The position numbers and the translations under genes were made by a program. Source: Candidatus Lutacidiplasma silvani (GTDB taxonomy: Archaea; Thermoplasmatota; Thermoplasmata; Lutacidiplasmatales; UBA184). From it: DNA of 64,000 nucleotides. How positions within the stretch are numbered: position 1 is the first letter of the stretch; each line of letters starts with the position of its first letter. Location: contig JAKIVZ010000012.1 in the NCBI GenBank assembly GCA_022750295.1, positions 1-64,000 on the forward strand. The letters run 5' to 3'. Below are positions 40,971 to 61,822 of the stretch, piece by piece. The notes beneath the pieces were generated by a model, which ran no database searches, was not told where the DNA came from, and saw only the letters and a program-made list of their open reading frames with translations.

Positions 40971-43900
40971 TCATGCTTGGTCGTTCGAGGGAGGCGGCGG
41001 CATCGTGTATTCGTCGTCCTCAGCCTCGAGGGTCGGCTCGGCGGTCGACGCGGACTCTTCCGACGTCGCCGGCGGGGCGGGTCGGCGGGTCCAGAGGGCG
41101 AGAACGGCGATCGCCACAACCGCGAGGCCGGCGAGGCCGAGGACGATCAGCGTCGACGTCGGGATCGCGGACGTACTCGAACCCGAGGAGCTGACGACCA
41201 CGATCGTTTGGTTCGCCTCGGCGGTCCGGTTGTACGGGTCGTGGACGGTCACGGAGACGACATAGCTCCCCGGTGCCGCGTAGGTGTGCTGGGTGAAGTT
41301 CGCGGGCGTGGTCACGGTCCCGCCGTCCCCAAACGTCCACGTGTAGTTGTAGGTGTAGGGGGGGACCGGGACGCCGACGGCCGCCGCGAGCACCACGCTC
41401 TGGCCCGCGAGCGACCCGCTCGGAACTTGGAGCGTCACAATCGGGAAGATCGGCGCGTAGATCGCCGTCAGGGTCCCGTTCCCGCCGACAGTGACGTTGC
41501 CGCCGGCGACGGTGACGCCGCCGGTGGAGTTGAGCGTGACGAGCACGTTGCCCAGGCACGGGGCCGCGTGGGTGGGATAGACGCCGTACGTGAGGTTGAG
41601 CGAGGTCCCGTTGGTGTCCGACTCCCCGTTCACGTAGAGCGAGCCGCAGCCGGCCGGGTTGATCAGGACCGTCACGTTGTACGCGCTCGGCGTGAACGTC
41701 GCGGTGACGATCGCCTGACCCGAGAGGTAGATGTCGCCACCCGTGATGATCGCCCCGACCGTGTTCGCCCACGACTGGAACTGGAAGTGGGCGCACGGGA
41801 CGGCCACGATGGGATACGGCACGTCCTCCGTTAGCGTCGCCGAGTCGTTCGTCGCATAGTCCGACCCGGCGAGCATCACGGAGCCGCAGCCGGTTGGCTC
41901 CGTCTGGACGTTGACGATCGCGATCGGTCGGAAGACGGCTTCGAGCGAACCGCTCGAGTTCACGTACGCGATCCCGTCGTGGACGACGACCCCGCCGGTC
42001 GTCTGCCAACGTACGAATCCGTACGCGGAACATGGAGTCGCCGTGAGCGCGGCCGACGTGTTCGGAGCGACCTCGGTGTAGTTGGTGTCGAAGTACCGAA
42101 CCGCGCCGAACAGGATCGACCCGCACGTTCCGGGGTCGGTCTGGAATTCCAGGAACGACGAGGGCGAGCCGGTGAGCCAGTTGGCGTAGACGGTCCCGGA
42201 CCCGTTCACCGTGAGTTCGCTCCCGAAGAAGCTCATTCCGGTCGCGGAGGCGGTCAGGCTGAACGGATAATGGCCCGTGCACGGGTTCTGGGTCACGATG
42301 TGGGTCGAATTGTTCTGCACGACCAGGACGGTCCCGTTCTTCTCGGTGACCCCGTCGAACTGGACGGTGCAATAGTACGGCGTCGTTAGGATCAGCACCT
42401 CCGTCAGAATGTAGTTCTTCTCCGAGATCGAGCCCGACGAAGTGACCGTGAGGTTGCCGCTTACGAGCGATGCCCCGCCCGTGGTGACGAACTGGGTGAA
42501 GCCGAAGTGCGAGCATGGGTCGGGGGCGACGGGGTACGGCGTGGAGTTGACGTAGAGGCTCTCCCGGTTGGTGTACCCGACGCCGCGGTAGAGGACTCCG
42601 CCGCACCCCGGCGGTGTCGTGCCGAAGGTGAGGGCGGACGCCGACGAAGTTGTCACGAAATTGGCGGTCAGCGAGCCGTTCCCGCCCGCGGTGAAGTTGT
42701 ACCCCTCGAGGGTGAGGTTCCCCGTCAGATTCCAGCCGGCGAAGCTGAGACCCCCGCAGGAGCCGAGGTTGGTGACGTTGCCGAGGTCCCCGAACCGGAG
42801 GCTGACGTTCTCGCCGGGGGAGTACGTCACCCCGTCGAAATCGGCGGTTGCCGTGCACGTCGCGGGGTTCGTCAGGTACTGGACCACGATCAGCGGGCGC
42901 ACGTACCGCCAGACCGCCGTCAAGTTGCCGGACGTGCTGACGGAGACGTTTCCGAACGGGCCGCTCGTGTCGTTCGAGACGGTGACGTGGATCCCGGGCG
43001 TGGCCTGCCAGTCGTTGAACTGGAACGGGTAGCACGACGAGCTGGTGACGGGGTAGCTTCCCGGGTTGACGTGGACGACCGACCCGTTCGCGTAGACCGT
43101 GCCGTTGAGGGTCAGGTTCGTACAAAAGGGTGGGAACGTGCCGAGCGTCACGGCGAACACCGGCAGCGGGCCCCGGAAGACGACGTACGTCTTGCTGGAG
43201 ATGTTCTGGCCGGCATGATTGTACGCGGTGATCGTGTAGTTGATCCAGCCGTTGGCGCCGGATGGGATCGTCCCGTTGTAGACTCCCCGCTGCGCCGTGC
43301 CCGACAGCCGGGTCATGACGAGCGAGGTCGGGGCTCCCGAGTTGACTGTGTAGACCAGCGTCGCGTTCTTGATCGTTCCAAGGTCGGATACCTCCGCCGA
43401 GACGTTCAGGGCCAGCGAGGGTCGGATGTACCCGGAGCGGCTATCGTTGGTGACGTAGTTCAGGAACATGGGGACGTAGTCCTTGGCGAACGGACCGCTC
43501 TGGATGTATTCCTGGGACTCTCCCCCGAAGTCGTCCAGAGTGTACGGCTGATCGTCTCCGAAATTCAGAGCGGTCCCATTCCAGGAGAAGAACGGGTACC
43601 ATCCGGAGCCACCCATCCCGGAGTAGTTGGGACAGTTCGCGATTGGAACCACAGCGGAGGAACTACACTCCGCGCTCGCCGACATCGGGGCGAAGAGCGC
43701 GTAATCGCCGGCGTATCCGAGCGTGGAATTCACGTAGAATTCGGGAATCCCGAACTCCGCCGACGGAGCCCCGTCCCAGTTCGTCTGGTTGTACGAATCG
43801 CACGACGCGAACGGTTCCGAGGCGATTGGGCAGAGGTCCCAGCCGATTCCGAGGCCGAAGGGGTACGACCAGTTGAGGAAGCAAGCGTCGGGGCACGAGG

Positions 43901-44726
43901 AGTTGAACTTCGGCTCGAACACGTGCGTGCCGGTGTTCGTCAGGTTCAGCTGGAAGCTTACATTGTTGGCCGCGGACCGGTTCGTGGAGTCGTTGGCCCA
44001 GATCCAGAGTCCTGAGCTGTTCCCCTTCACTCCGTCAAAGGTGACGTTGTACCAGGTGGCGCCCGCGATCCCGGTCGGTCCGGTGAAGCCGCCCCCATCT
44101 CCGACCTCGTCGGTCTCGCACCACTGGCTGTTGTTCCACGCTACGGCCATGCTTTGACCGAGGCAGTTGGCCCCCGCCGTGCTGTTGAGAAGGGACCAAA
44201 CCGACACTTGCAGCGTCCAGCCGACGGTGGTGTTCGCGACCGGGTCGATCGGGGTGAAGCTCAGCTGCGCGTACGATTGCCCGAAGGCCGAGCCGGGGTC
44301 GCCGCCCACGACCATCCCGAGGAGAAAGTCGTTGTACGCGAAGTCCTGACCGGGAGAGCCGTTCGTCGGGAGGTAGACCCGTTCGGTGAACCGCTCGCCC
44401 GAGCCGGGCGCGTTCGAGGAGAACGTCCCGTGGACCATGTCCTGGGCGAGCGGCCCGGGGCAGTACTGGTACGTGAGCGACGGGGATGGTGGGAAGAACG
44501 CACCGGGGCCTCCGAGCGCTCCATAGGCAAACGGGGGTCGCGGGCACATGAAGACGGCGGGATGGGAAGCTGCCCGGGAGGCGGCGGAAGTGACCGCGGA
44601 AGGGCTCACAGGGAGGCCCGCCGAGGCCGCGCTCGCTCCGAGGATCCCGCTCGGAGCGCTCAGCACCACGACCACGACGACGATGCCGAGGATCGGACCC
44701 CAGCGGCGGAGCGCTCGCAGGCTCAT
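40971..44726 (-). CDS. Giant surface protein with Cys-paired repeats and PKD domain
   Basis: The 1251-residue protein has a signal peptide (ILGIVVVVVVLSAPSGILG) and an N-terminal Cys-containing domain (about 40-400) related to that of the 34099-37464 product. A beta module with MTRLSG … GTIPSG … ITAYNHAG follows, then about eight repeats of 65-75 residues (about 500-1100). A repeat begins P-x-x-C-G-S/G-V/I, has a second Cys in PC-x3-F and ends in a G-x-L-T-A-x-F strand, so one disulfide per repeat is likely. A PKD domain (WTFGDGGTV), membrane helix and acidic tail end it. GGAGAA lies 5 bases before the ATG. A stalk-like adhesin is inferred. Confidence 0.78.
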   Translation of the reverse strand: MSLRALRRWGPILGIVVVVVVLSAPSGILGASAASAGLPVSPSAVTSAASRAASHPAVFMCPRPPFAYGALGGPGAFFPPSPSLTYQYCPGPLAQDMVHGTFSSNAPGSGERFTERVYLPTNGSPGQDFAYNDFLLGMVVGGDPGSAFGQSYAQLSFTPIDPVANTTVGWTLQVSVWSLLNSTAGANCLGQSMAVAWNNSQWCETDEVGDGGGFTGPTGIAGATWYNVTFDGVKGNSSGLWIWANDSTNRSAANNVSFQLNLTNTGTHVFEPKFNSSCPDACFLNWSYPFGLGIGWDLCPIASEPFASCDSYNQTNWDGAPSAEFGIPEFYVNSTLGYAGDYALFAPMSASAECSSSAVVPIANCPNYSGMGGSGWYPFFSWNGTALNFGDDQPYTLDDFGGESQEYIQSGPFAKDYVPMFLNYVTNDSRSGYIRPSLALNVSAEVSDLGTIKNATLVYTVNSGAPTSLVMTRLSGTAQRGVYNGTIPSGANGWINYTITAYNHAGQNISSKTYVVFRGPLPVFAVTLGTFPPFCTNLTLNGTVYANGSVVHVNPGSYPVTSSSCYPFQFNDWQATPGIHVTVSNDTSGPFGNVSVSTSGNLTAVWRYVRPLIVVQYLTNPATCTATADFDGVTYSPGENVSLRFGDLGNVTNLGSCGGLSFAGWNLTGNLTLEGYNFTAGGNGSLTANFVTTSSASALTFGTTPPGCGGVLYRGVGYTNRESLYVNSTPYPVAPDPCSHFGFTQFVTTGGASLVSGNLTVTSSGSISEKNYILTEVLILTTPYYCTVQFDGVTEKNGTVLVVQNNSTHIVTQNPCTGHYPFSLTASATGMSFFGSELTVNGSGTVYANWLTGSPSSFLEFQTDPGTCGSILFGAVRYFDTNYTEVAPNTSAALTATPCSAYGFVRWQTTGGVVVHDGIAYVNSSGSLEAVFRPIAIVNVQTEPTGCGSVMLAGSDYATNDSATLTEDVPYPIVAVPCAHFQFQSWANTVGAIITGGDIYLSGQAIVTATFTPSAYNVTVLINPAGCGSLYVNGESDTNGTSLNLTYGVYPTHAAPCLGNVLVTLNSTGGVTVAGGNVTVGGNGTLTAIYAPIFPIVTLQVPSGSLAGQSVVLAAAVGVPVPPYTYNYTWTFGDGGTVTTPANFTQHTYAAPGSYVVSVTVHDPYNRTAEANQTIVVVSSSGSSTSAIPTSTLIVLGLAGLAVVAIAVLALWTRRPAPPATSEESASTAEPTLEAEDDEYTMPPPPSNDQA

Positions 44727-44774: not shown

Positions 44775-45113
44775 TCAGCGGGAACCGGAGTCCGGCTCGG
44801 GCGCATCCGACGGTCGGTAGATCTCGAAGCTCGGGGCGGAGTCCACCGGGCCGCTCCCGACCGGCGGCTCGCTGGGCCGCTTCGGGGTTCGGTTCCCTTC
44901 CCGTAGGTCGTAGGCGAACCCGAGCCCGAGCGCGGTGAAGATCCCGCCCACGATGGCGACCACGATCGGAAGCCAGGTGTGGTCCGGGAGCGATTTGCCG
45001 CCGGGGAGGTACGGAAGGCCGACGCCGACGAAGAACACGAGGAGCCCCAACAGGCCGACCCCGGCCCACGTCGAGGCATCCAGGCGCTCGCGAATCCCGT
45101 CGACGTCGACCAC
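44775..45113 (-). CDS. Small two-helix membrane protein in the AAA-surface cluster
   Basis: The 112-residue product has two membrane helices (about 18-37 WAGVGLLGLLVFFVGVGLPY and 47-67 WLPIVVAIVGGIFTALGLGF), then a cytoplasmic tail with YDLREGNRTPKRPSEPP and a PSFEIYRPSD motif. Start GTG at 45113; no strong ribosome site. It lies 92 bases downstream of the membrane AAA+ gene and on the same strand, so it could be a small partner. Not recognised. Confidence 0.65.
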   Translation of the reverse strand: MVDVDGIRERLDASTWAGVGLLGLLVFFVGVGLPYLPGGKSLPDHTWLPIVVAIVGGIFTALGLGFAYDLREGNRTPKRPSEPPVGSGPVDSAPSFEIYRPSDAPEPDSGSR

Positions 45114-45205: not shown

Positions 45206-48200
45206 CTACCCTCGGGTGCCGTACGACCGGATGAAGTCCTGGGCCCACGCGAGGGTTTCGGGCGTGATCGACGAGTGGGTCTTCTCGACGGCTTCCAGAA
45301 GGTTCTCCATCCGGACCCCGACGACCTTGCTGACCGGCTCGAGCTTCGCGCCCGGCGTTCCCGCGGCGACCCCGGCGTGGCCGGTCGTCGTCCCGGTCTG
45401 GAAGAGGCCGAAGCCCCCACCCCGGTCGGTCGCGTCCTTCGTCTCGCTGACGAGCTGCTCGCGGAGCGCAATCAGCTTCGCCTCGTCGACGACGCTCGCG
45501 ATGTCGGCGCCGGAGAATCCGTCCGAGAGCTTGGCGAGCTGGCCGAAGTCGACGTTCCCGTCGCTCGGGACCCCTTTGAGGTGAATCCGGAAGATGTCCT
45601 GCCGGGCCGCCACGTCGGGAGGCGGCACGTAGAAGATCTTGTCGAATCGCCCCGGGCGGAGTAGCGCCGGGTCGAGGGTCTGCGGCCGGTTCGTCGTGGC
45701 GATGATGATGACCTTGTCCTTCGGACGCAGGCCGTCCATCTCCGTCAGGAACTGGCTGACCGCCCGCGAGACCTCGGGCGTCTTCATCGAGTCCTTGCTC
45801 GCGAGCGCGTCGATCTCGTCGAAGAAGACGATCGAGGGCGCGTTCTCCCGAGCCCGGTAGAGGACGTCCCGGACCGCGGCTTCCGACTGGCCCGCCAAGG
45901 CGCTGACGAGCTCGGGCCCGTTGACGATCTGCATCGGGACGTTGAGTTCGTTCGCCGCCGCCCGCATGATGTGGGTCTTGCCGCAGCCGGGCGGACCGAA
46001 CAGGAGGATCCCCCGTCCGGTCTTGATCTTGTAGCTCTCCATCAGCTCGGGCCGCGTGAGCGGGAGCTCGACGTACTCGCGGATCGCCTGCTTGATGTCG
46101 ACCAGTCCGCCGACGTCGTCCCACCGGACGACGATCTTCCGCTCCATCCGCTGGACCTGGTGCATCTTCCGCTCGTAGTCCATCTTCATGACCTCGTAGT
46201 CGGAGATCATGCGTAGGCTGATCGAGGGCTTGATCCGGGGCAGCACCTGGCGGAAGTCGTCCATCGCGATCGGGCTTCGGACACCGGTCATCATCTCGCG
46301 GCGGACCGCGATCGTCGCGGCTTCCCGCACGAGGTTCGCGAGGTCGGCGCCCGAGTACCGCTCGGTCTTCTTCGCGATCTCCGAGAGGTCGATGTCTTGC
46401 GCGACCGGCCGGCCGACGAGGTGCACGTGGACGATCTCCATCCGCTCGTTGAAGTCGGGGGGCGGGACGTAGATGATCTTGTCGAGCCGGCCCGGGCGCA
46501 TGAGCGCCTGGTCGATCAGGTCCGGCTTGTTCGTCGACCCGACGACGATGACACCGGCCGACTTGTCGATGCCGTCCATTTCCGAGAGGAGGATCGAGAG
46601 GAGCCGGGGGGTGACGTCGTCCGCCGTGTACATGTCGCGGCGCTTCGCCACCGAGTCGATCTCGTCCATGAAGAGGATGCACGGCGCCCGCTCCCGGGCC
46701 GTCCGGAGGAGCTCGGCGACGCGGCCCTCCGATTCGCCGTACCACTTGCTCATCAGGTCCGAGCACTTGATCGAGATCATCTCGACGCCGAGCTCGCTCG
46801 CGAGCGCCTTCATGAGCATCGTCTTGCCGCAGCCGGGCGGGCCGAACAGGAGGATCCCCTTGGGCGGTTCGAGCTTGAACCGGGTCGTGACGTCCTTCCG
46901 CATCAGCGGGATGATCATCGATTCCTTGATGTCGGCCTTCACGTCGTGAAGACCGCCCACCATCTCGAACGTCGTCTTCTGGAGTCCCTTCATCTCGGCG
47001 ACCCGCGTTCCGACGTTGGTCCCGCCGAGACGGCTCGTGAAGTACGACTCGAACGCGTCGCGGATGACGAGGGATCCGGCGGTCGCCGTGATCATCGCAG
47101 GAACGAAGAGGAGCACGACCAGGTCGTACGCCCCGACGTAGTTGAACGCCCAGAACGCCCCGAACGTCACCCCGGCGAGGACCCCGCCGCTCACGATCGA
47201 GTACTGGAACAACCGCTCGGGGGTCTGGTGCTCTCGCTCGCGGAGCGCCCAGGTGACGAGCCACGCCGCGAAGCACCACGCCCCGATCTCGACAATCGGG
47301 ATCGCGATGAGCCCGAGACCGCTCCCGCCGAGGGAGAGGACCTGCGGGTTCGGGTTGAGCATGTTGCCGTACGCGGAGCCGATCGCGTTCAGGGTGAAGT
47401 ACGGGAACGGTAACGTCGGTTGCAACGCGGCCGCATGGCCCGCGATCAGACTGGGTGTGCCGTTCGCCCCCGGACCGGCGAGGTAGCCGAGGATCGGCAG
47501 GTTGCCGAGCGTGACGAACAGCGCCACCAGGAGACCTCCCGCGACGGCGACCGCGAGGCCGATGTACAGCGAGAAGATCATCGCGAGGAACACCGGGACC
47601 ACGAACGACAGACCGAGCGGAGCGAGGAACAGGGTGAGGAAGGTCCCGATCCCGAATCTCCAGTCGATGAGCGACGCGAACAGAACGGGAATCGCGGCGA
47701 ACAGGAATATCAGCCCGAGCGTTCCGGACTGATAGCCGACTTCCGGGGCGACTAACAGGACGAGAACGAGCAACGACAGCTGGGGGAATTTCCAAGCCAG
47801 GAACCCGACCCCAGCCGCGATGAAGAGGACGATGGGCCACGGATAGAACGGTAGGAAGAACCCACCGAGGAGCGCGGTGACGCCCATGATGATGGCCGTC
47901 AGATGCTTCGGGTCCTTCGTCTGGCGGATGAACCACCGCTCGATCTTCGCGGGGAGAACGAAGGCCGCTCCGATGCAGACGATGCCGACCGCGATCAGGA
48001 ACGCGAACAGGTCGTCGTAGAGGACCGCCGGGGGTCCGTACTGGATGTACTGCTGCCCGATCGCAACCGCCTGGGCGCCGCCGAGGCCGTGCTGGATCGC
48101 GCCGGTCGTGGCGTCCGCCGCGGCGTCGAGCGTCAGGTAGCCGTTCGTCCCGAACGGTCCGCCGGGAAGCTGCTCCCGAACAATCGTGAAGGTGAGGACG

Positions 48201-48877
48201 ACGGGGGTTCCGGAGCTGACCCAGTTCATCTTGCCGGAGAACGTCGCGAACAAGTTGTCCGCGAGGGTCGTTTCCGATGCCCGCTGGCCACTCGGGAGGT
48301 TGGCGATCGACGCGAATGCAAGGGTCGTCGTCCCGCTGGTCGAGTTGTACGAACTCGAGCGGACCGTGTCCTTGATGACGATGGTCTGCCCGGCCGCGAG
48401 GCTGCTCTCGGTCAGCTCCACGTAGTTGACCGCCTTGTTCGACGACTGGACCGCGTGGTCGTTCTGGAGGAACTGGCTCGCCGTTTCCGCGTGGACGACG
48501 TCCGGGTAGAACGAAACCAGGAGAGCCGCACCGGTCGCGAACAGGATGACGCCGACCAGAAGAAGGACCCAGAACGTCCGACGTCCCGTCTTTCGTGGCG
48601 GGCCACGGGGCGGAGCCTTCGCGGGCGCCTTCGGGGGGCTTCGCACCGCTGGGGCGCCGGGCTTCGTGGCCGGGCGAATCGCGGTCTGGCTCGGAAGCGG
48701 AGCTGCTTTGGGGATCGCCGCACCCGTCGCCGGCCGGGCGGCCGTCTTCGTCGTGCTCGGAGCACCCGGGGTGGCCGGAGCGGCGGGAGCCGCCGGGACG
48801 GGAGCGGGGGCCGGGGCGGGAGCGGGTGCCATGGGCGAGGTCGGCGGAGTGGCGGCCTTGGTGCTGGGTGTTCCCAT
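45206..48877 (-). CDS. Polytopic membrane protein fused to tandem Cdc48-type AAA+ ATPase domains
   Basis: The 1223-residue protein starts with about 98 residues of Pro/Ala-rich disordered sequence. Membrane helix 1 (101-122) is followed by a beta-rich domain (about 123-287) and about 11 more membrane helices between 288 and 605. Two classical AAA+ domains follow. D1 has Walker A GPPGCGKT 679-686, Walker B MDEID with D738/E739, pore loop KWYGES and Arg fingers in RPGRLD. D2 has Walker A 961-968, FFDEID with D1020/E1021, pore loop ALAGQS and RPGRFD. All ATPase motifs look intact. The Cdc48 N domain is absent, replaced by the membrane part. GGAGAA precedes the ATG by 4 bases. It follows two surface-protein genes closely, suggesting a membrane-protein extraction or assembly machine. 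Confidence 0.9.
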   Translation of the reverse strand: MGTPSTKAATPPTSPMAPAPAPAPAPVPAAPAAPATPGAPSTTKTAARPATGAAIPKAAPLPSQTAIRPATKPGAPAVRSPPKAPAKAPPRGPPRKTGRRTFWVLLLVGVILFATGAALLVSFYPDVVHAETASQFLQNDHAVQSSNKAVNYVELTESSLAAGQTIVIKDTVRSSSYNSTSGTTTLAFASIANLPSGQRASETTLADNLFATFSGKMNWVSSGTPVVLTFTIVREQLPGGPFGTNGYLTLDAAADATTGAIQHGLGGAQAVAIGQQYIQYGPPAVLYDDLFAFLIAVGIVCIGAAFVLPAKIERWFIRQTKDPKHLTAIIMGVTALLGGFFLPFYPWPIVLFIAAGVGFLAWKFPQLSLLVLVLLVAPEVGYQSGTLGLIFLFAAIPVLFASLIDWRFGIGTFLTLFLAPLGLSFVVPVFLAMIFSLYIGLAVAVAGGLLVALFVTLGNLPILGYLAGPGANGTPSLIAGHAAALQPTLPFPYFTLNAIGSAYGNMLNPNPQVLSLGGSGLGLIAIPIVEIGAWCFAAWLVTWALREREHQTPERLFQYSIVSGGVLAGVTFGAFWAFNYVGAYDLVVLLFVPAMITATAGSLVIRDAFESYFTSRLGGTNVGTRVAEMKGLQKTTFEMVGGLHDVKADIKESMIIPLMRKDVTTRFKLEPPKGILLFGPPGCGKTMLMKALASELGVEMISIKCSDLMSKWYGESEGRVAELLRTARERAPCILFMDEIDSVAKRRDMYTADDVTPRLLSILLSEMDGIDKSAGVIVVGSTNKPDLIDQALMRPGRLDKIIYVPPPDFNERMEIVHVHLVGRPVAQDIDLSEIAKKTERYSGADLANLVREAATIAVRREMMTGVRSPIAMDDFRQVLPRIKPSISLRMISDYEVMKMDYERKMHQVQRMERKIVVRWDDVGGLVDIKQAIREYVELPLTRPELMESYKIKTGRGILLFGPPGCGKTHIMRAAANELNVPMQIVNGPELVSALAGQSEAAVRDVLYRARENAPSIVFFDEIDALASKDSMKTPEVSRAVSQFLTEMDGLRPKDKVIIIATTNRPQTLDPALLRPGRFDKIFYVPPPDVAARQDIFRIHLKGVPSDGNVDFGQLAKLSDGFSGADIASVVDEAKLIALREQLVSETKDATDRGGGFGLFQTGTTTGHAGVAAGTPGAKLEPVSKVVGVRMENLLEAVEKTHSSITPETLAWAQDFIRSYGTRG

Positions 48878-48898: not shown

Positions 48899-50809
48899 TT
48901 ACAGCGTGATGCGTCTCTGCTCTTGCTCGGCCTTCTTTCGGCGCTCGCGGAACCAGGCGCTCACCGGGACGAACGCCAGAGCGGCGGCGCCCAGGCCGAG
49001 GATCGCGGGGATCGTGAACGTCGTCTGCTGGACCCAGCTCGTCTGTGCCACGGCGCCCGACGCGACGTAGAAGATCAGCTCGAACGGCGTCGACGAGCTG
49101 ACGCTGACCGTCGCGGCCTGCGTCTGGTTGAACGCATGGATCGTGACGATGTAGGTCCCGAACGTCACGGGGAGGTACCCGGTCCCGGCGAGGGGGGTCG
49201 GCGCAGCAAATCCGAGCGCCGTTCCCTGCCGGCTCTCCGACCACGTGGCGTTCGCGAGCGTGTAGTTGAGGAACGAGACGAGGTGGCCCGTGGAGAGGTC
49301 CACCGCCTCGAAGAAGAACATCCCGTACCCGGCCGCGAGGACGAGGCCGCCCGGACCGGCGGCCGGGGCGCCGGTCTCCGTGTACGTCCAGTTCCCCGAG
49401 GCGAGCGGGGTCCCGAAGATGTCCTTGACGATCAGGTAGAACGCGACCGTGCCCCCCGAGGGGAGTCCCGGAATCAAGGCGAACGAGGTGTTCGCCCCGA
49501 TCCGCGTCATGGGAAGAACCGCCGAGGCTACCCCGGCCGCGTCGGAGTACGTGACGCGAACCTGGGCTTGCCCGAACGTCACGTTCTGGATCGGCTCATG
49601 GATCGTCACGTTCACCTGGGTGCCGGTCGCCAACGTGGTCTTCGTCCCGGTGGCCGCCAGCACATTGGGGGTCGTCGTGATGTTCAGGTTGCGAACCAGT
49701 CCCAACGAGGGGTACCACCATCCGCCGTGGCTCGACCACGCGAACGTGTACGTGGGGCTGACGATTCGGTCGATTGAGCCCCCCTTCCAGACCAGGTAGG
49801 CGGTGATGTTGAACGAAGCCTTCGTGGACTCCGGATTCGGCGGGATCGTCAGATTCGTGTACGTCGCGTTCAGCGGGGAGAACGCCTCGCCGTACGCCGT
49901 CGTGATGCCGTCGACCGTTTCGCTGAGATTGAGGGTCGCCTTCGGGATCGCCTGCAAGGACCCATTGATGTACGAGATCGACGTCAGTGAGATTCCGAGC
50001 GATTGGTTCCGGTTCGGGTCGTACGCCGGCTGCGAGAGCACGTTGGGCGTCGTGCTAACCCGGATATCGCTGAGGAAGCTCGTGGACGCCCACGGGCTGT
50101 CGACGGAGAATCCCCACGTCCAGTTGTCGATCAGACCCGAGTCGTTGTATTTCGCGTAGTTGCCGCCGCTCGTCGAGTAGATCGTGCTCGGCGTCGCCGA
50201 TGCGGACTGGACGGTCAGGTTGAAGTACACCTGCGAACCGGGCAGGAAGTACCGGTAGAGGTCGAAGTAGAACGACGCCGTCGTCCCCGGACCGTTCGGG
50301 TTGATGTACCCGGTCAGCTGGGCCGGCTCGAGCGGGTCGAATCCCTTGATGATCGGCGGGACGCCCGAACCGATCGACCACGATGTGCCCCAGATGGTCA
50401 CGACGGCGTTGACCATCTTGACGTTCGTGGTGATGTTCATGTAGAACCCGTTCAGGTTCATCGGGAGGTTGTTTCCGCACGGCTCCATGTTGAACCCGCC
50501 GTGGTCGAGACCCGGGGACCCGGGCACGTAGAAGCTGACCTCGACGTCGTTGAAGAACAGCAAGCTGTTCCAGTGGCCGGGGTTCTGCGGGGTCGGACAC
50601 GAGGGCGCCCCGGAGGCGGGGGTCGTCGCCGGAACGGCGGCCGCGGCTGCGACGCCGAGCGCCGCGAGCGGAACCGCGGGCGCGGTCGGAACGCTGGCGG
50701 CGCGAACCGTGGGGGAGAGGACGGCGGACTGGGCGAGCCCGGGCGACACCGAGAGAAGGACGACGGCGACGACCGCGAAGAGAAGCCCGGTGGCCAGGGG
50801 TCGGCTCAT
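48899..50809 (-). CDS. Surface protein B, paralogue upstream of the membrane AAA+ gene
   Basis: The 636-residue product has a signal peptide (LLFAVVAVVLLSVSPGLAQS) and an extracellular beta-rich body with many sequons. A single membrane helix (about 598-616, TIPAILGLGAAALAFVPV) is followed by a basic cytoplasmic tail RERRKKAEQEQRRITL. Two segments recur in the preceding protein: DIRVSTTPN and the module LPMTRIG … GLPSGGTVAFYLIVKD. The ATG at 50809 overlaps the stop of that gene (ATGA), and the AAA+ gene begins 21 bases after its own stop. The tail ending R-R-I-T-L may be read by the AAA+ partner; this is inference. Confidence 0.82.
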   Translation of the reverse strand: MSRPLATGLLFAVVAVVLLSVSPGLAQSAVLSPTVRAASVPTAPAVPLAALGVAAAAAVPATTPASGAPSCPTPQNPGHWNSLLFFNDVEVSFYVPGSPGLDHGGFNMEPCGNNLPMNLNGFYMNITTNVKMVNAVVTIWGTSWSIGSGVPPIIKGFDPLEPAQLTGYINPNGPGTTASFYFDLYRYFLPGSQVYFNLTVQSASATPSTIYSTSGGNYAKYNDSGLIDNWTWGFSVDSPWASTSFLSDIRVSTTPNVLSQPAYDPNRNQSLGISLTSISYINGSLQAIPKATLNLSETVDGITTAYGEAFSPLNATYTNLTIPPNPESTKASFNITAYLVWKGGSIDRIVSPTYTFAWSSHGGWWYPSLGLVRNLNITTTPNVLAATGTKTTLATGTQVNVTIHEPIQNVTFGQAQVRVTYSDAAGVASAVLPMTRIGANTSFALIPGLPSGGTVAFYLIVKDIFGTPLASGNWTYTETGAPAAGPGGLVLAAGYGMFFFEAVDLSTGHLVSFLNYTLANATWSESRQGTALGFAAPTPLAGTGYLPVTFGTYIVTIHAFNQTQAATVSVSSSTPFELIFYVASGAVAQTSWVQQTTFTIPAILGLGAAALAFVPVSAWFRERRKKAEQEQRRITL

Positions 50810-52875
50810 AGCGTCACCCGCTTCTCCTCTTCCTTGCGCCGCTGACGGATCTGGCGCCACCAGAAGAACAGCGGGACCGCCGTGCCGATCATCGCGAGCG
50901 AGGCGATGAGTTCGGCCAGGGGCACTTCATTGCCGGACGGGGCCACGGAGGGGGAGAGGGTGGGGGCCGGTGGGGTGACGTTGAGGTAGAAGAGGATCGC
51001 GCTCCCTTCCTGGACCACGTAGTAGTTCGAGCCCGCGACGAGGGTCTGGCGGGCGGAGAGCACGTGCGTCGCGTAGACCGAGGCGTTCAGCACGTTCGAG
51101 CTGAACCCGGGGTCCGAGACCGAGATCCGGTAAGTTTCGTTCGCCGCGAGGAGCAGCGGGGCATCGGCCGACTGGGAGGCGTTCGGGTAGGCGACGCCGA
51201 ACTGGGTCCGACCGACCGAGTTGAAGAACCCCTGGGGGCCGGTGACCTGGACCGTCGCGTTCGACACCCAGAGGTGGCTTCCGTTGTCGTACACGTAGAC
51301 GTAGAAGAACGACGCGTTCCCGGGGACGAACGGCACGGCCGTGAGGAACGTTGGCGTGAGGTAGGAGAAGTCCGGAGAAACGAGCTGATGCTGGTCGAAG
51401 TCCCACGCATCGATCGTGAAGTTGACGTACGACCCCACCGGGAGCCCCGGCAGGCCGCCCGTGAAGACGGTCGAGCTCAGGCGGGTCATCGGGAACATCG
51501 CGACCGACCGCTCGCCGATCGCGGGGTAGCTGAAGTATTCCACGAGCTCGGCGGCATCGATCGCCGTCCCGGGGTTCAGGCTCTGGATCGTCACGTTGAC
51601 CGCCTGCCCGGCCCCGATGGTGACGGCGACCCCGGCGGCGTCCGCGACGGCGGCCGGCGTCGAGTTCACGCCGATGTCATCGGTGAACGTGCCGGAGAGG
51701 AACGACCCGTTCCCGCTCACGTTGTACTCGTAGAACGGGGTGGTGAGTTGGTCGCCCGGGACATCCGTGACCACGACTTGGTACTGGACCTTCGCCCCGG
51801 CGACTTGGGCGTACGACGGCCCGATCACCAGAGAAGCGTTCACGGCGCCCGCCGTCGCGTTCGAGTTGAGCGAGAACGCAAACGACGTGTCAAAGAGCGT
51901 GACCGAGTTGCTCGTCTCGATGAACCGGACCTCCGCGGTGCCGATGGTCGCGTTGGTCGGCGTGCCGTCGGCGGGGGTCGTGTTCAGCTGGATCGTCACC
52001 GAGTCGTTCCAGTTGGGGGCGAGCGGGTGCGCGGAGACCTGGATATCTGAGAACGTCGCGTTCGAGCCGTCGGACTGCGGGATCCCGGGGTACGGGGAGA
52101 ACGGCCAAGCCCCGCCGTAGGTGAAGTGGTACGTCGCGCTGTAGTTGTGGTAGAAGACGTTCCCGGTTCCGCTGGTGAGCTCGATGAACCAGCTCATCGA
52201 CTCGCCGGCGAAGACGTTGGGGGCCGACGAACCGGACGAGCCGTTCGCGGCGATGTCGACGGTGTACCAGTACGGATACGATGGGTCCTGGGGGTAGAGG
52301 ACCGGCCCGGACCACCACGTGTTGTTGTCGGAGTGCCAGACCGTACCGTCGTCGGGGCCCGAATAGGGGTCGCCGTTCCAGAGCATCCCCGTCACGTTCA
52401 GCGAGATCGGGCTCTCGGGCCCGTTCTTCGGGGAGGTCGTGGGCGTGATGTCGTACCGGGACTTGATGAACAGCGGAAGGTCGGTCTTCGCGCCCGGTTC
52501 GACCGACGCGTAGTACCCGCTCGACGGGATGATGTTCGGTTCGTAATAGTTCTGGATCGAGACGCAAACGGTCGTGTTGATCTTGGCGCAGAACGGATTG
52601 AACGACGTCGAATTGTTCCCCGTCCCGTTCGCCGACTGGGTCGCGCCGTTGGCCACCGCGTCCGGACTGGCCGGGCGCACGGCGGGAGGGGTGACGGAGG
52701 GGTGCCCCGCCGACACGGCTGGGATCGCCGACGACGAAGTTGCGGTTCCGACGACCCCGCTCTCGAGCCCGTAGGCCACGAGGACGACGAGAAGCGCCAC
52801 CCCCCCGGCAAGTACCGCCGCGGAGACGACCGATCGGCGCTGCGACGTCAGACGGAATCCGGACGGACGGACCAC
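50806..52875 (-). CDS. Surface protein A, first gene of the AAA+ trio
   Basis: About 689 residues. An N-terminal membrane helix or signal anchor (AAVLAGGVALLVVLVAYGLE) is followed by a beta-rich extracellular body rich in sequons, a helix near the end (VPLAELIASLAMIGTAVPLFFWW), and the cytoplasmic tail RQIRQRRKEEEKRVTL. It shares the tail and the module FPMTRLS … LPGLPVGSYVNFTI with the next protein, so the two are paralogues from tandem duplication. GTG at 52875 with AGGAG ten bases upstream is preferred; an ATG at 52968 in the same frame would add 31 non-hydrophobic residues. Confidence 0.78.
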   Translation of the reverse strand: MVRPSGFRLTSQRRSVVSAAVLAGGVALLVVLVAYGLESGVVGTATSSSAIPAVSAGHPSVTPPAVRPASPDAVANGATQSANGTGNNSTSFNPFCAKINTTVCVSIQNYYEPNIIPSSGYYASVEPGAKTDLPLFIKSRYDITPTTSPKNGPESPISLNVTGMLWNGDPYSGPDDGTVWHSDNNTWWSGPVLYPQDPSYPYWYTVDIAANGSSGSSAPNVFAGESMSWFIELTSGTGNVFYHNYSATYHFTYGGAWPFSPYPGIPQSDGSNATFSDIQVSAHPLAPNWNDSVTIQLNTTPADGTPTNATIGTAEVRFIETSNSVTLFDTSFAFSLNSNATAGAVNASLVIGPSYAQVAGAKVQYQVVVTDVPGDQLTTPFYEYNVSGNGSFLSGTFTDDIGVNSTPAAVADAAGVAVTIGAGQAVNVTIQSLNPGTAIDAAELVEYFSYPAIGERSVAMFPMTRLSSTVFTGGLPGLPVGSYVNFTIDAWDFDQHQLVSPDFSYLTPTFLTAVPFVPGNASFFYVYVYDNGSHLWVSNATVQVTGPQGFFNSVGRTQFGVAYPNASQSADAPLLLAANETYRISVSDPGFSSNVLNASVYATHVLSARQTLVAGSNYYVVQEGSAILFYLNVTPPAPTLSPSVAPSGNEVPLAELIASLAMIGTAVPLFFWWRQIRQRRKEEEKRVTL

Positions 52876-53120
52876 GGGTGTTCCACTCCTAACTGACTTG
52901 TTGGTGCGGGGGCCACGGGGCGGTCCCGCAATGCAAAGACCAGTCGACACTCGAGGGGGTGGTCCCATGCATGGCTAAAAACCTCTAGCCCTCCCGACGG
53001 TGCCGAACGCGCGCGCGTAGAGGAATGCGTCGCGACGAAAATCGTACCGGAGGAGCAGGGGCGCCGGATGTCCCCAGCGAGCGGGGACCCCGGCGCGGGA
53101 GGGGGGGCCGGGCGAGAGGT
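52876..53120. promoter_or_regulatory. Gap before the surface A - surface B - AAA+ trio
   Basis: This 245-base gap is the longest inside the surface cluster. On the minus strand it has a TATA-like GGTTTTTAG (about 52975-52983), which would start the trio transcript near 52950 with a 75-base leader. The stretch nearer 53121 is GC-rich without clear signals. Confidence 0.4.
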
Positions 53121-55286
53121 CTACTCGAAATGCCCGATCCCACCGCTCTTCTTGGCCGAGGCTCCATCGAACTTCGACCCCATCGGGCCGGACTTGGCGG
53201 CGACCCGCATGGCGACCGGCTTGTTCTTCATCTGGACGCGCACGAATCCCGCCCCGAGGAACCCCGCGGCGGCCGCCTGCAACGAGATGTTGGCGACCCC
53301 GACATTGTTCCCGATCCCGATCTGCTGGACCACCGGGAGCGGCGCGGGGGCGGCAATGGCGAACGGGGGCGGGATCGGGGCGGGGGGCGGCGGGGTGACC
53401 CCCGCCGGGCCGAGACCCGGGGTCAGCTCCACGTTCAGGAGCGCGAGCGGGAACGATTCGGTGACGATCGAATTGTTCGTGTACGGAACGAACGTCGCCG
53501 ACGAGTAAAGCCCATCGACCGCGGTGCTGCCTCCCGCGTGACAGCCGGCCGTCGTGCAGGCGTCGACCGGCACGGCCCGGTAGGGGCCCCCCACGGCGAT
53601 CACGTTGAACGAGGCGGTCCAGGTGTCTCCGACGAACATCTGGTTCGTCGAGGCGTTCGTGCTCCAGTTCCAGCCGAGGAAGCGAATCCCCGCGAGGTCG
53701 AGCGGCTGCGCCGCGCCGCACCCGCGCAGGTTGATCCCGTTGTGCTGGCATTGCTCGGTCGCATCGAGGTTCGACGCGTTCGCGAGGACGATGTTCCCGA
53801 ACGGGACGAAGCTGAAGATCGGCCGGTTCGAGCCCGCGGCGACCTGGGTTTCGAGGACCGGACCGAAGCCAATTTCCCGGAACGCCTCGAGGAGGGTCGG
53901 ATTCGCGAGGTTCGGTTTCGTCGGCGGACCGTGCGGGACGTACTGGAGTGTCCCGGTCTGGCCGTCGGGGCACGTGAAGAACGACGGGCCGTCCCACGTT
54001 CCGCCCGTCGCGGCCGCCATGTCGCAGCCGGCGAGGAGGACGTGCTGGACGTCGGTGACGACGGCCGACCCACCCGGACCCCCGTTGGTCCGGCCCGTCG
54101 GCCAGCCCTTCGAGAGGGGGTCGGTCGAGGTCGTCCACAGATCGATCATGTCCACGGTGCAGACGCCGCCGATCGAATCGGTGCACGTCGGCGAGGTCTT
54201 CGTGAGACGGGCGATCGAGTCGTTCGCGTTGCCGTCCTGCGTGCGGATCCATCCCTCGCAGTTGGGGCTCGAGCCATCGAGGAAGGTGTACGACGGCTCG
54301 CACGACGTGGAGGTCTGGCAGCCGCTGTCGAGCGCATAGTCGGAGGCGCTCACGCAGTAGTCCTCGTTGTAGTTCGGGTCCTCGGGGGCGGTCGACCCCA
54401 TCCAGACGATCACGTGGTGGGTCGCCTCCGACCACGTGAGGCCGCTCCCGATGATCGTCCCGTACATCGCGGTGATCACCGAGGAGTGAAGGATGTTGTC
54501 CGACATGTCCGAGTCGCCGTAGATGTAGCCGCCGCCCAGGACCTGCGCCTGGAACGTCGACGTCACGGCGGTCCCGAACTGCTGGGACGGGACGAACTGT
54601 TGGATATCGACGTGGTACTTCGAGCCGTCTCCGTCGTCGGCCTTGTCCTTCGTCGCGAAGTAGTCGACCAGGGCGAACGACACGTGGGAGTGGGGGTTCG
54701 CTTCGGCGATGGCGTTCGCGATGTCCTGGGAGTGGGCCACGAAGAACGGCACTCCGTTCGACTCCTCGCAGGGACCGCTCGACGCCGAGGCGCACGGATC
54801 GGTGCCCGGGTCTTCGGCGGTGGGGTCATAGACCCCGTCGTAGGCGGTGGTTTCGATCACGAATGCGACCTGGACGTCCGGCCAACTGAGGTAGCCGGCA
54901 CCCCCCGCGTTCGCCGAGACCGTGACGCGGGACATGCCGACGCCGGCCGCGCAGCTCGACTCCTGGTCCACACAGATCGAGCCGGGCGAGTCGGAGATCC
55001 CGAGCTGCAGCGCCCCGAACCCCGGGGCGGTCGCGGCCGAAACGGTCGAGCCGTCGGACGAGGCCGGAGCGGCGGCGGGGGCGGACAGTACGTGGACCAA
55101 GGACCCCGAATTCGACGACACCCCCGACGCCACCGCGGTGTCCTGCATCCCGGGGATGCCGGAGAGGGCCATGATTCCGAAGAGCGCAACGACGCCGGTC
55201 AGGACGAGGGCCCGGGTCCAGCGCCCTCCGTGGGTCGTGGGTTGCTCGGCTTTCGACGCGCTCATTCGGCGACCGTGTTCGCTCAT
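53121..55286 (-). CDS. Surface protein with VWA-like domain
   Basis: The 721-residue product has an N-terminal membrane helix (ALVLTGVVALFGIMALSG) and a domain at about 120-350 resembling a von Willebrand A fold. It has strand VQVAFVIETTAYDG where MIDAS proteins have DxSxS, HVSFALVDYF, GDSDMSDNILHSSVITAMYG and HHVIVWMGS. Canonical MIDAS residues are not all present. A Cys-rich insert (SGCQTSTSCEPS; SPNCEGW) and further beta domains follow, ending in a hydrophobic stretch and tail VAMRVAAKSGPMGSKFDG. ATG at 55286 overlaps the stop of the giant gene upstream (ATGA), so the two are coupled. Confidence 0.7.
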   Translation of the reverse strand: MSEHGRRMSASKAEQPTTHGGRWTRALVLTGVVALFGIMALSGIPGMQDTAVASGVSSNSGSLVHVLSAPAAAPASSDGSTVSAATAPGFGALQLGISDSPGSICVDQESSCAAGVGMSRVTVSANAGGAGYLSWPDVQVAFVIETTAYDGVYDPTAEDPGTDPCASASSGPCEESNGVPFFVAHSQDIANAIAEANPHSHVSFALVDYFATKDKADDGDGSKYHVDIQQFVPSQQFGTAVTSTFQAQVLGGGYIYGDSDMSDNILHSSVITAMYGTIIGSGLTWSEATHHVIVWMGSTAPEDPNYNEDYCVSASDYALDSGCQTSTSCEPSYTFLDGSSPNCEGWIRTQDGNANDSIARLTKTSPTCTDSIGGVCTVDMIDLWTTSTDPLSKGWPTGRTNGGPGGSAVVTDVQHVLLAGCDMAAATGGTWDGPSFFTCPDGQTGTLQYVPHGPPTKPNLANPTLLEAFREIGFGPVLETQVAAGSNRPIFSFVPFGNIVLANASNLDATEQCQHNGINLRGCGAAQPLDLAGIRFLGWNWSTNASTNQMFVGDTWTASFNVIAVGGPYRAVPVDACTTAGCHAGGSTAVDGLYSSATFVPYTNNSIVTESFPLALLNVELTPGLGPAGVTPPPPAPIPPPFAIAAPAPLPVVQQIGIGNNVGVANISLQAAAAGFLGAGFVRVQMKNKPVAMRVAAKSGPMGSKFDGASAKKSGGIGHFE

Positions 55287-58200
55287 TCCTTCCCTCGGGC
55301 GGTGGGCGGGCGGGGCGCTCCCAGGCGGCCGGAGCGCCGGAGGACGACGACCATTCCGATGACCCCGACCGCGGCGACGACCCCGAGCACGACCGCGATC
55401 GCGACCCATTCGGTCGAGGGCGACGGCGCGGGATTCGAGTTGCTCGAGGCGAGGCTCTGCATCTGGACCGTGACCGGGGCCGCCGAGGCGCCTTTCAGGG
55501 CGACCGTCAGGGTGCCGTTCGAGTATCCGCCGTACACGCCCGTCACGGTGTACGTACCCTCGGGCAACGCGATCTGGAAGTTCCCGGCCTGCGTCGCGTC
55601 GATGACCTGCGAGATCTTGTCCCCGTCCGTCGCGGTCCCGGCGACCGTCACGGCGGCGCCCGGGAGCGGGGCCCCCGAGACCGAGTCGACGACGAGGCCG
55701 AAGAGGCTCGTCATCGGCGGGTACATCGTCACGTTCCGGGTCAGTCCCGCGCCGTCCAAGGAGACGGCGACGCTGACCTGCCCGTAGGTGACCGGCAGTG
55801 GGCCCTCGTAGAGCGCGGTGAGCTGGGCGGTCCCGTTCGGCAACTGGACGACGAACTCTCCGTTGGCGCCGGTGGTCGCGAGGATCGAGCTTCCGTCGAG
55901 GATCTCGACGCCGCTCAGCGCCGTGCCGGTCAGACCATCGGTGACCTTCCCCGCGACGGCGTACGTCTGGACGGAGAGGGTCAGCTCGAGTCCCGATACG
56001 GCCCCATGGACAACCACGGGCTGGCTCAGCGTCGCTTCGCCCGGCGACGTGACGATCAGGTCGTACGTCCCGTACACGACGGAGAAGCTGAACGCTCCCG
56101 AGCTACCCGTCGTGGTCGACGCCGCGACCACGCCGCCCACTTCGGCCGCGACGAGCGCACCCGCCAAGCCGGCGCCGCCCGCGAGGACGGTCCCGCTCAC
56201 CGGGAAGTCGGTGTCGACGCCGAGGCGGACCAGGAACGCGGTGGGCGCGAGGGTCGTCTTGCCGCCGACGATCGTGAGGTCGACCAGAGAGTCCTCGTAG
56301 CCCGGGGCCGAGATCGTCACGACGTACGCCCCGGGCGCTCCCTCGATGAGATAGTGTCCACTCGCATCGGTCCGGGTCGGAACGCAGGTTCCGCCGGACC
56401 AGACCGGGCAGGCGTACACCTGGGCGTTCGAGATCGGGGCGGTCGTCGCATTGTCGTACACTGCACCGGCCGCCGACCCGTACGACTCGAGGAAGACGGT
56501 TCCAACCGAAATGTGCTCGCCCGCCACCACGTGGAGGTTGAGGTACGAGGCGTTGTAGTAGGGGTCGGTGAAGTTCAGGATGTACGACCCGGCCGGCACG
56601 TCGATCAGGAAGCTTCCCGAGACTTCGGTCTGGACGGTGTAAAGACACGGCCCGGTCGGACTGCCGCCGACGGGCGAGCAAGCGCTGACATTCGCGTCGT
56701 GGAGGGGGAACCCGGCCGGGAGGCCGAGGACGACCCCGGAGATGTACGCGGGTTGATACACCTTGATCGGGGTCAGGGGGACGAAGCAGTCCGAACAGAC
56801 GTCCGCGAGGGTCGGTCCCGTCGAGATGAACCCGGGCGCGGAGACGTTGATGAAGTTCGGTTGGGATCCGGGCGTCGCGTTGACCCAGAACACCCCGGTC
56901 CCGTTCGTCTGCGACATGCCGCAGAGCCGCTGCCCACCGAGGCAGTCGGTAATGTTCGCCCCGGCGACCGGCACGTTCCCGGGTTCCGAGAGCACGACCG
57001 CCGAGACGACGCCGTCGCCGGTCAGGTTGACCGTCGGTTGCGTGGTGACCTCGCCGGCCGCGACGAGCACCCGCGTGGAGTTCGGCTCGTACACGGGCCG
57101 GGAGTAGTTCGCCCAGTCGAGGCCGGGCGGGCCATCGACGAGGAACTCGCCCCCGACGTTGCTGGTCGCGAGAGGGGTCGTCGAGGACTCGGTGTTGCCG
57201 TTCGAGCTGACGGTGAGCGTCACGCCGGGGATCGGGAGGTCCTTCACGGGGTCGATGAGCGTCGCGATGGGCGGGAACGCGCTGTAGTTCACCTGAGTCG
57301 AGGCGACGTACCCCCAGTGGTCGACCGTCAGATTGTTCGGAATCTGGGTGAGGGAGTGGTACGCCCCCGTGCTGCTGAAGTTCACGGGCGCGTAGAACAC
57401 CGTCTGATTGAAGTCGTTCCCTGGGCCGATCTGGAACTGGACCGACCGAGATTGCGCGGCGGAGACGTTGAAGAAGCCGCCGCCGTTCGTCTGAGAGGTC
57501 GACGTGTACTGCAGGATCGACCCCGACGGGGTCGAGATCGCCGAGACCCCGAGGTACGATGCCGGCTGGTAGGTGTTCGTCGTGACCGCCAAGCCGGTCT
57601 CCCAGCCGAAGTGGAGGAGGGAGAGGTTCTGGACGGCCTGGTAACCCTCGCCGGGTTGCAGGACGATCGCGATGGGCGCTGTGCCGTACTCCCACGCGTC
57701 GGGAACCTGGGAGGCGTAGGTGACCTTGTTGGCGGCGTTCCCGGGCGGGATGAAGAACGTGATGCCCCCGCTCCCGTTGGCGCTCCAGCTGACCGAGGTC
57801 GAGAAGTTCCCGGTCGCACTGATGCTGACGTCGGCGAACCGGATCGGCGTCGGGGTCAGTGCGGAGTTGTTCTCCCAGCTGATATTGTTCCAGACGGAGA
57901 AGCTCACCGCCGCGAAGGCGTTCAATCCGATCTGTCCGGGGATCGAGACGTACGGCACCCCGGAGGGGATCGAGACGCTCGTGGAGTTCGCCGTGAACCC
58001 TCCGGCCGCGCTCGACCCGAACGCCGGCGCCGATGGGGTGACCTGGACCGAATCGGCGACTCCGACCTCGCCCCAGACCTGGAACTCCCCGCTTGGCTGG
58101 ACCGCGCTCAGCGTCCCAGTCGCGGGGGCGCAGAGCATGTTGACGGTGCACACCTGGACGTTCACATCGGGCCCCATCGTCATCGAGTAGGTGTTGTTCT

Positions 58201-61246: not shown

Positions 61247-61822
61247 TAGGTTTTCTTCGAATGGCCGGGAGAAGATAAACCTTTGTATGGAGGGAAACGT
61301 CCCGCGATTCCAATCGCGGGGCACCGAAACCCGCCGGCTGGGAGGGAGAGGCCACTCCTCCCCGTTCCGGATCGCCCGATTCTGAGGCGGACCATGCGCT
61401 GTCCCCTCTTGAACCTCTCGGCAGGGGGATCGCGGCGGGCCGGGGCGGGGCCCGTCCGCGAATTCGGGGGGGGACCAACTCGCTCGTCATGGTCGTCCCC
61501 GACGGTCCGGGAGCCGCTTCGCCGTCGTCCCGCCCCATCGGTTTGACGACGAGGATCGCGCCCCCTGAGCAACGACGTATGACTCTCGCCCACGAGAGCG
61601 GGTTCCATGGCCTGCACGGAGCCACGCCGCCAGCCGCGGCGACCGGCGGGGTAGTTCGCATCGAGCTCCGCAGCTGTTCGAGGGGCCGACGCCGGAAAAG
61701 CTCAGCGATGGAGAGCGGCCGGTCCCGTGGCGACTCTCGCTTGCGTGTCAGCCCGAGCGGAGTCTCCGTCGAGAGAGGTTTAAGAACCGGGGCCGTGTCC
61801 GCGGCTTCGGGTTCGCTCAAGC
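61247..61822. other. Gene-poor stretch between divergent surface and membrane genes
   Basis: In 576 bases no convincing gene or RNA was found; open frames on both strands are low-complexity. Signals seen are the TATA of the giant surface gene (61274-61281), a palindrome at 61301-61320 just upstream of it, and a plus-strand TATA-like GGTTTAAG (61777-61784) for the gene at 61823. No tRNA, SRP or RNase P RNA hallmark was recognised. Confidence 0.5.
61301..61320. promoter_or_regulatory. Palindrome upstream of the giant surface-protein promoter
   Basis: Perfect inverted repeat CCCGCGATT-CC-AATCGCGGG, about 20 bases upstream of the minus-strand TATA of the 1987-residue surface gene. The position suits a transcription factor site controlling the surface cluster. 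Confidence 0.45.

Follow-up and report, generated by a model that had tools for sequence, protein, structure and literature searches.

A membrane-embedded Cdc48-type AAA protein with conserved surface-protein partners in Thermoplasmatota

FtsH is a membrane-anchored AAA protein with an extracytoplasmic domain, one AAA module joined to an M41 peptidase, and one or two helices, and NSF is a soluble AAA protein with an N-domain of its own. To our knowledge archaea have no FtsH, and we know of no membrane AAA proteins whose anchors are other than one or two helices. Archaeal LonB is anchored by a segment within its AAA+ module (PMC9263693), the modules of NSF are swapped and its D1 is the motor (PMC5070193), and a predicted archaeal secretion or remodelling system combines a MoxR AAA protein with VWA, immunoglobulin-like (Ig-like) and DUF4350 (arCOG01314) proteins (Makarova et al. 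2015, PMC5898192), arCOG01314 being marked '-' for Thermoplasmata in Table 1 of that paper. Here we describe a gene from Candidatus Lutacidiplasma silvani in a window of 64,000 nucleotides (the whole stretch of DNA that was analysed, positions 1 to 64,000 of contig JAKIVZ010000012.1, assembly GCA_022750295.1). It encodes a polytopic membrane core that runs into two Cdc48-type AAA modules, D1 and D2, and we call its product the membrane-AAA protein. The nearest named relatives are the AcS and SubAcS isolates of Ca. Lutacidiplasmatales from Scottish acidic soils (PMC9287336).

The membrane-AAA gene is a single intact open reading frame (ORF) that runs from 48877 to 45206 on the minus strand. An earlier, sequence-only reading of the window had pointed to a many-span, double-AAA ORF at these positions, and it is indeed intact there, but the strand is minus, the plus-strand reading of 45206-48877 containing 5 stops. 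That two separate genes had been joined by a sequencing error was considered and ruled out, as the same single frame recurs across relatives and in other assemblies. The fusion is not an artefact because the core recurs in many genomes and, at the loci examined (a part of the core-positive genomes), continues into AAA sequence unless the contig ends. Thus the core ORFs without a Walker A motif (L057/L074, L090, L105 and L127; here and below L, f and G numbers are our own handles for loci, families and genomes) are all open at the contig 3' end, and in another set of 11 loci every one has at least one Walker A. One weak core match with an internal stop (G230, L134) yielded no core ORF. Searches with a core profile, which covered the class and the phylum, were positive for 60 of the 400 class genomes at E<=0.001 (G230 among them, and some contig-cut) and for 29 of 389 genomes of a draw from the phylum, 13 of these lying outside the class. 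A scan of genome contigs with two conserved peptides, which detects only sequences carrying those peptides, gave 44 loci, of which 43 are labelled Thermoplasmata, Thermoplasmatota or Euryarchaeota and one is a partial 4-kb contig titled bacterium. A mobile origin was also considered and rejected, the core having no match in plasmids or phages. The combination had been unfamiliar at first sight, and we found no published description of a polytopic membrane protein fused to a Cdc48-type AAA in the literature searched, which left out most subscription papers and all preprints.

Pfam recognises two PF00004 AAA stretches (the top family, at 284.7 bits) and two PF17862 lids in the window protein. 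The two AAA+ modules with Walker A, Walker B and Arg-finger motifs that had been described from the sequence were all located, with Walker A at residues 679 (D1) and 961 (D2), the DE of Walker B at 738 and 1020, and RPGR at 794 and 1074. Over 45 aligned copies, the D1 Walker A G[PA]PGCGKT, the pore loop, the sensor-1 Asn and RPGR each occur 45 times, and Walker B reads DE in 32 copies and DD in 13. Over the same copies D2 has Walker A GPPGCGKT in 30, Walker B DE in 27, the sensor-1 Asn in 39 and RPGR in 40, and its loop is ALAGQS in 23 copies, the window protein included, and GFAGES in 3 copies, which belong to f9. The contrast between an aromatic pore loop in D1 and none in D2, first noticed in the window protein, therefore extends to all 23 ALAGQS copies, with the Phe of f9 as the exception. 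All four proteins of other classes that were scanned (L142, L143, L145 and L147) have a single AAA module by Pfam, and L103, also from another class, keeps a second module that is degenerate; two full AAA domains thus describe the window protein but fail as a hallmark of the family. Invariant motifs in D1, together with the decay or loss of D2 in other families, point to D1 as the constant motor and to D2 as probably dispensable, and the 45 of 45 counts for the D1 pore loop, Walker A and RPGR agree with the earlier choice of D1 over D2. No peptidase model, and in particular neither M41 nor the Lon protease domain, and no AAA_3 is among the best 25 of 49 Pfam matches of the protein, and only 81 residues remain after residue 1142, in keeping with the sequence-only reading that no protease domain follows. 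The copies with DD in the D1 Walker B are L113-L117 and L119-L126, and their D2 also has no DE. Two genomes, G078 (L101/L104) and G063 (L111/L102), each carry two paralogous copies, one with an intact double AAA and one with a fused ectodomain and a degenerate D2. At the C terminus, a YGTR motif (window 45209-45223, minus strand) is conserved in the double-AAA copies of f1, f2 and f9, and in L106 and L107 the protein ends in a SAP domain (E 8e-6 and 1.6e-5), a domain that usually binds nucleic acid.

The gene is the third of five on one strand, in the order A-B-AAA-D-E (Table 1). A and B are alike in having a signal-like start, a large ectodomain, a single C-terminal transmembrane (TM) helix and a short charged tail; the start of B overlaps the stop of A by 4 nt (ATGA), and 21 nt separate B from the AAA gene. 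Where the upstream DNA can be judged in f1 and f2, a B homologue is present at 27 of 27 loci and an A homologue at 26 of 26. Downstream of the AAA gene, 43 of 48 judged loci have a small ORF that contains a hydrophobic segment. The giant E belongs to the operon in the window's genus and near genera, and an E homologue lies downstream in 16 f1 loci (window included) of the 17 with room for E. The D sets of f1b, f2, f9, f13 and f17 match one another (hhalign E 2.5e-7 or better), and D of the window genus and near genera has no convincing match to the other D sets (best 4.8e-4, probability 32). In a search of the whole protein against its own genome and 20 relatives, full-length or contig-cut copies were found in 6 of the 21 genomes, five of one genus (G000, G005, G007, G010 and G012) and one of another family, G013, whose copy has 990 residues and a short N terminus; the other 15, some of them 90-99% complete, have ordinary AAA matches only. 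Gene B is in the same 6 genomes, and neither gene is in the remaining 15. E is full or near full length in 5 of 5 genus members with the AAA gene and in 0 of 8 without it, the remaining E matches being partial and mostly on the PKD part. These neighbours fit the earlier suggestion that membrane or surface proteins are the likely clients.

The A and B sets of f1, f2 and f9, the short B set of other families and the fused N termini are all homologous in pairwise hhalign comparisons (E 1.2e-16 to 1.8e-62). A and B are paralogues, each a surface protein that spans the membrane once. B of f1 matches 12 fused N termini at E 1.1e-29 (probability 99.8), and the short B set matches the fused N termini at 8.1e-45. 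From this homology it follows that the partner ectodomain is part of the AAA polypeptide in several families, namely f9 (second copy), f17, f39, f43, f58 and f63. A model of the fused domains and core of L107 (mean predicted local distance difference test, pLDDT, 85.2; predicted TM-score, pTM, 0.58) gave 320 PDB rows at E<=0.001, and the 50 listed are mostly tandem FN3/Ig-like and similar sandwiches; whole-query TM-scores are low because only the FN3/Ig-like part aligns, and this fold is read on the homologous L107 fused domains rather than on B of the window. In other families the upstream gene encodes a VWA protein (beside L104, L107 and L145) or a 450-residue protein without a Pfam match, and the VWA and A-prime sets compare with the A, B and fused sets at 0.022 or worse. 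Partners scanned other than VWA have no convincing Pfam match. For A-prime, a 23-column match to VWA profiles was taken as poly-Pro low complexity, and DUF4350 was dropped, there being no Pfam match to it and a Rossmann-like look by eye only. VWA and A-prime proteins upstream of L143, L145, L146, L149, L150, L119 and L123 have a poly-Pro stretch, then a hydrophobic segment of EY/QYxxAGxxxLG type and a short basic end.

The cytosolic ends of A and B resemble each other. Among 532 windows compared along B in 28 homologues (one from another family), the final 13 residues form the most highly conserved. In A the corresponding end comes ninth among 499 windows over 33 rows, 7 of which are weak matches from other families. 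In both cases the rows were selected by homology, not by tail. All 27 B and 26 A proteins of f1 and f2 end in [IV][TS][LV], one with an extra G. The codon pattern [KNSRHQ]R[IMV]T[LV]-stop occurs in the 2.1-Mb assembly at the A and B ends only; the raw search gave 3 places, the third ending in TGG without a stop, and the reversed control gave 1. Other families have conserved ends of their own, e.g., KIKVRA, KVSVGA and VGAG. The operon, the shared tails and the fusion of the partner ectodomain all go beyond the sequence-only reading.

We tentatively favour, at somewhat short of an even chance, the reading that the membrane-AAA protein supplies the motor for a remodelling machine with fixed partners, dedicated to the cell surface of Thermoplasmatota. 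The protein would assemble as a hexamer, with D1 as the active pulling ring and D2 as a second, dispensable ring, and the motor would dock on or thread the short cytosolic tails shared by A and B. ATP would drive the remodelling, assembly or dismantling of the A/B (and perhaps E) surface complex across the membrane, while the B-like ectodomain, fused to the core in other families, would sit beside the membrane core. Such a machine would be specialised, rather than a general protease or a housekeeping extractor.

Several observations weigh against this reading. The A and B tails reach only about 17 residues past the last TM helix, short for threading by the standard of FtsH, which makes docking as likely as pulling. 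The tails are different in f9 and in the VWA/A-prime families, and the tail pattern omits AGR and TTR codons and was run on an assembly that is 91% complete. The contact between the AAA part and the tails is itself one that we infer, and A and B may be clients, regulators or structural subunits, the gene order being compatible with each. Thirteen of the 45 copies carry a DD Walker B in D1, a D-like ORF was not found at L071, L085, L116, L124 and L125, and the co-occurrence counts are phylogenetically non-independent. VWA is absent from the genome itself, where the likeness to AAA/VWA machines is partial.

Table 1. Features of the membrane-AAA locus, in window coordinates
Feature	Coordinates	Strand	Basis and remarks
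Membrane-AAA protein, whole gene	45206..48877	minus	1223 aa; ORF call; same frame in relatives
Pro/Ala-rich N terminus, residues 1-98, presumably cytosolic	48584..48877	minus	sequence
TM1, residues 99-128	48494..48583	minus	predicted helix and hydropathy
Extracytoplasmic beta domain, residues 129-284	48026..48493	minus	structure model; weak OB-fold-like matches
TM2, residues 285-307	47957..48025	minus	structure model and hydropathy
Conserved membrane core, residues 319-629, ending VGTRVAEM	46991..47923	minus	alignments
AAA D1, residues 634-868	46274..46978	minus	Pfam, motifs, PDB matches
D1 pore loop KWYGES, residues 711-716	46730..46747	minus	[KR]WYGES in 45/45
AAA D2, residues 916-1142, motifs intact in window protein	45452..46132	minus	Pfam, motifs
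D2 loop ALAGQS, residues 993-998, without aromatic	45884..45901	minus	motif scan
Partner A, 720 aa, secreted-type, C-terminal TM, tail ..RRKEEEKRVTL	50806..52968	minus	ORF; start codon putative
Last 13 codons of A, matching tail	50809..50847	minus	tail pattern
Partner B, 636 aa from ATG 50809, C-terminal TM, tail ..KKAEQEQRRITL	48899..50809	minus	ORF, homology
Last 13 codons of B, conserved cytosolic tail	48902..48940	minus	conservation
Small membrane protein D, 112 aa, with ..APSFEIYRP..	44775..45113	minus	ORF
Gene E, 1251-aa PKD-domain surface protein, possible client	40971..44726	minus	PKD Pfam match; homologues downstream

Among the alternatives, a secretion or export motor, in which the core would be a channel and the AAA rings would move substrates such as the giant E, survives best, though we consider it unlikely. 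A polytopic core suits a channel. The Pro-rich N terminus, TM1 and extracytoplasmic-looking beta domain of the sequence-only reading are all present, and of its one plus about 11 helices the polytopic character stands, but mean hydropathy counts 11 hydrophobic segments overall for 45 relatives, or 12 over the first 17 rows. The predicted topology, which fits the helices and the loop charges, would place the N terminus inside, the TM1-TM2 ectodomain outside, about eight crossings and one broken hairpin in the core, and the AAA modules in the cytosol. AlphaFold2, run on 45 sequences, gave a model of residues 98-640 with a mean pLDDT of 82.9 and a pTM of 0.78 (this and the L107 model are monomers). 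Over its core, the model matched nothing in the PDB at E<=0.001 by Foldseek, and a known fold for the core was not adopted, the best rows being mixed (ABC transporters, single-strand-binding proteins and receptors) with query TM-scores of about 0.07-0.15. The beta domain gave weak OB-fold-like rows at E 0.3 or worse, and Pfam gave no family for residues 1-642 at E<=0.1. A motor for export would also go with the conserved place of E in the operon. On the other side, A, B and E start with signal-like hydrophobic stretches and could use Sec, and a classic AAA ring is established as pulling toward the cytosolic side.

The neighbour types (Ig-like membrane-anchored surface proteins, small membrane proteins, VWA in some families) and the presence of an ATPase resemble the secretion complex predicted by Makarova et al. 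2015 (PMC5898192), which speaks for export; the ATPase here, however, is of classic Cdc48 type and fused to a membrane core. A search of the genome, 91% complete, for VWA (PF00092) gave no match at E<=0.001, so that in this genome the protein and its partners resemble AAA/VWA machines only in part. A known anti-phage defence system was tried and rejected: with PADLOC the AAA protein matches IetA/TRIP13 and other ATPase models in the AAA region only, and A, B, D, one VWA and one A-prime protein gave no match.

General quality control of membrane proteins, in which the protein would take FtsH's place and extract misfolded membrane proteins for the proteasome or LonB, is unlikely. It would use the aromatic pore loop of D1 and the intact motor, and it would suit a membrane-embedded protein that has no peptidase of its own. 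FtsH, i-AAA and m-AAA proteins likewise combine a membrane anchor, an extracytoplasmic domain and an AAA module, but the membrane-AAA protein has about 10 helices and two AAA modules, and NCBIfam FtsH models match its AAA part only, at 451 bits against a cut-off of 600. With Cdc48, VAT and p97 (TIGR01243) it shares tandem AAA modules with lids, and these are the best PDB sequence matches of both modules; it differs in its membrane embedding, its dispensable D2, a D1 that resembles Cdc48 D2, a TIGR01243 score of 537.9 that does not reach the cut-off of 802.65, and the absence of a Pfam match for the Cdc48 N-domain in residues 1-642 (E<=0.1). Elsewhere the genome encodes another protein with two AAA modules and one with a single module, and judging by appearance we take these to be Cdc48 and PAN; both pore loops of the soluble two-AAA protein are aromatic (KYYGES and KWVGES). 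Four of five listed soluble Cdc48 copies end in hydrophobic-Tyr-X (the HbYX end), whereas the window protein ends ..SYGTRG and no listed membrane-AAA copy has a Tyr next to last, a point against this alternative. Fixed operon partners argue against a general extractor as well, and a patchy gene, absent from 15 of 21 genomes including ones 90-99% complete, would be odd for housekeeping. Archaeal membrane proteolysis has otherwise been studied as LonB and rhomboids (PMC9263693), a point in favour of quality control, and LonB is alike as a membrane-anchored AAA machine. By the tests made, the membrane-AAA protein is not a member of the MoxR/VWA, Cdc48 or FtsH systems, although it may work like them.

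Quite unlikely in our view is a signalling or adhesion switch, in which ectodomains at the surface would recognise or hold a target and be switched between states by the AAA rings inside, with hardly any net transport. Its appeal lies in the adhesin/FN3-type ectodomains, in the VWA partner of other families and in the stretch before the core, which varies across loci while the motor is constant. In the window's genus and near genera this stretch is a Pro-rich segment, TM1 and a small beta domain (the Pro/Ala-rich N terminus is missing from the f2 homologue, L008/L026); in L111 it is zinc-ribbon-like, in L026, L119 and others a short stub, and in L102-L104, L106, L107, L142, L143, L145, L146, L148-L150 and also L147 two Ig-like domains with a TM helix. 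A switch would hardly need a motor that pulls and whose aromatic loop is invariant, no ligand is known, and the genome has no VWA.

Descent in the manner of NSF, with D1 from Cdc48 D2 and D2 from Cdc48 D1 in swapped order, is very unlikely: NSF has the same swap and division of labour (PMC5070193) and D1 scores 249 bits against VAT D2 and 181 against VAT D1, but D2 shows no preference (about 195-201 bits against either module), and the best tree, which held no NSF sequence, places D1 and D2 of the family as two sister clades (SH-aLRT 96, with a long-branch warning). The approximately unbiased test rejects neither arrangement, giving a p-AU of 0.084 for the swap and of 0.098 for the Cdc48 order. 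The module swap that the best matches had suggested is thus not claimed. With the swap neither best nor rejected, the likeness to NSF is one of division of labour, D1 being the conserved motor and D2 the decaying module in both (PMC5070193). The membrane-AAA protein differs from NSF in being embedded in the membrane; its residues 1-642 have no Pfam match.

Two further genes deserve mention. Upstream of the operon at L119 (5595-6755) and L123 lies a signal-peptidase-like gene, the L119 copy matching TIGR02228 at E 0.0018, under the cut-off. In the window itself, 55283-61324 on the minus strand encodes a 2013-residue surface protein with seven CarboxypepD_reg stretches, near other PKD/CarboxypepD giants.

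Returning to the surface-remodelling machine with fixed partners, a bolder form of that proposal is possible but less probable, and we offer it with more reserve. The locus would encode a new envelope machine in which a Cdc48-type ring with a new-fold core grips the shared tails of Ig-like proteins and builds, loads or dismantles a surface structure. This would be a classic-AAA counterpart, of independent origin, of the MoxR/VWA system, and its two rings would share the work in an NSF-like way, one as the motor and the other dispensable. The remodelling and extraction of membrane and surface proteins in archaea is a largely open field; since the locus offers a single gene, partners that are fixed and a short motif in the tails, motor, client and signal can be tested together. 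For Cdc48-type AAA modules, the finding widens the range of known partners to include a polytopic membrane core.

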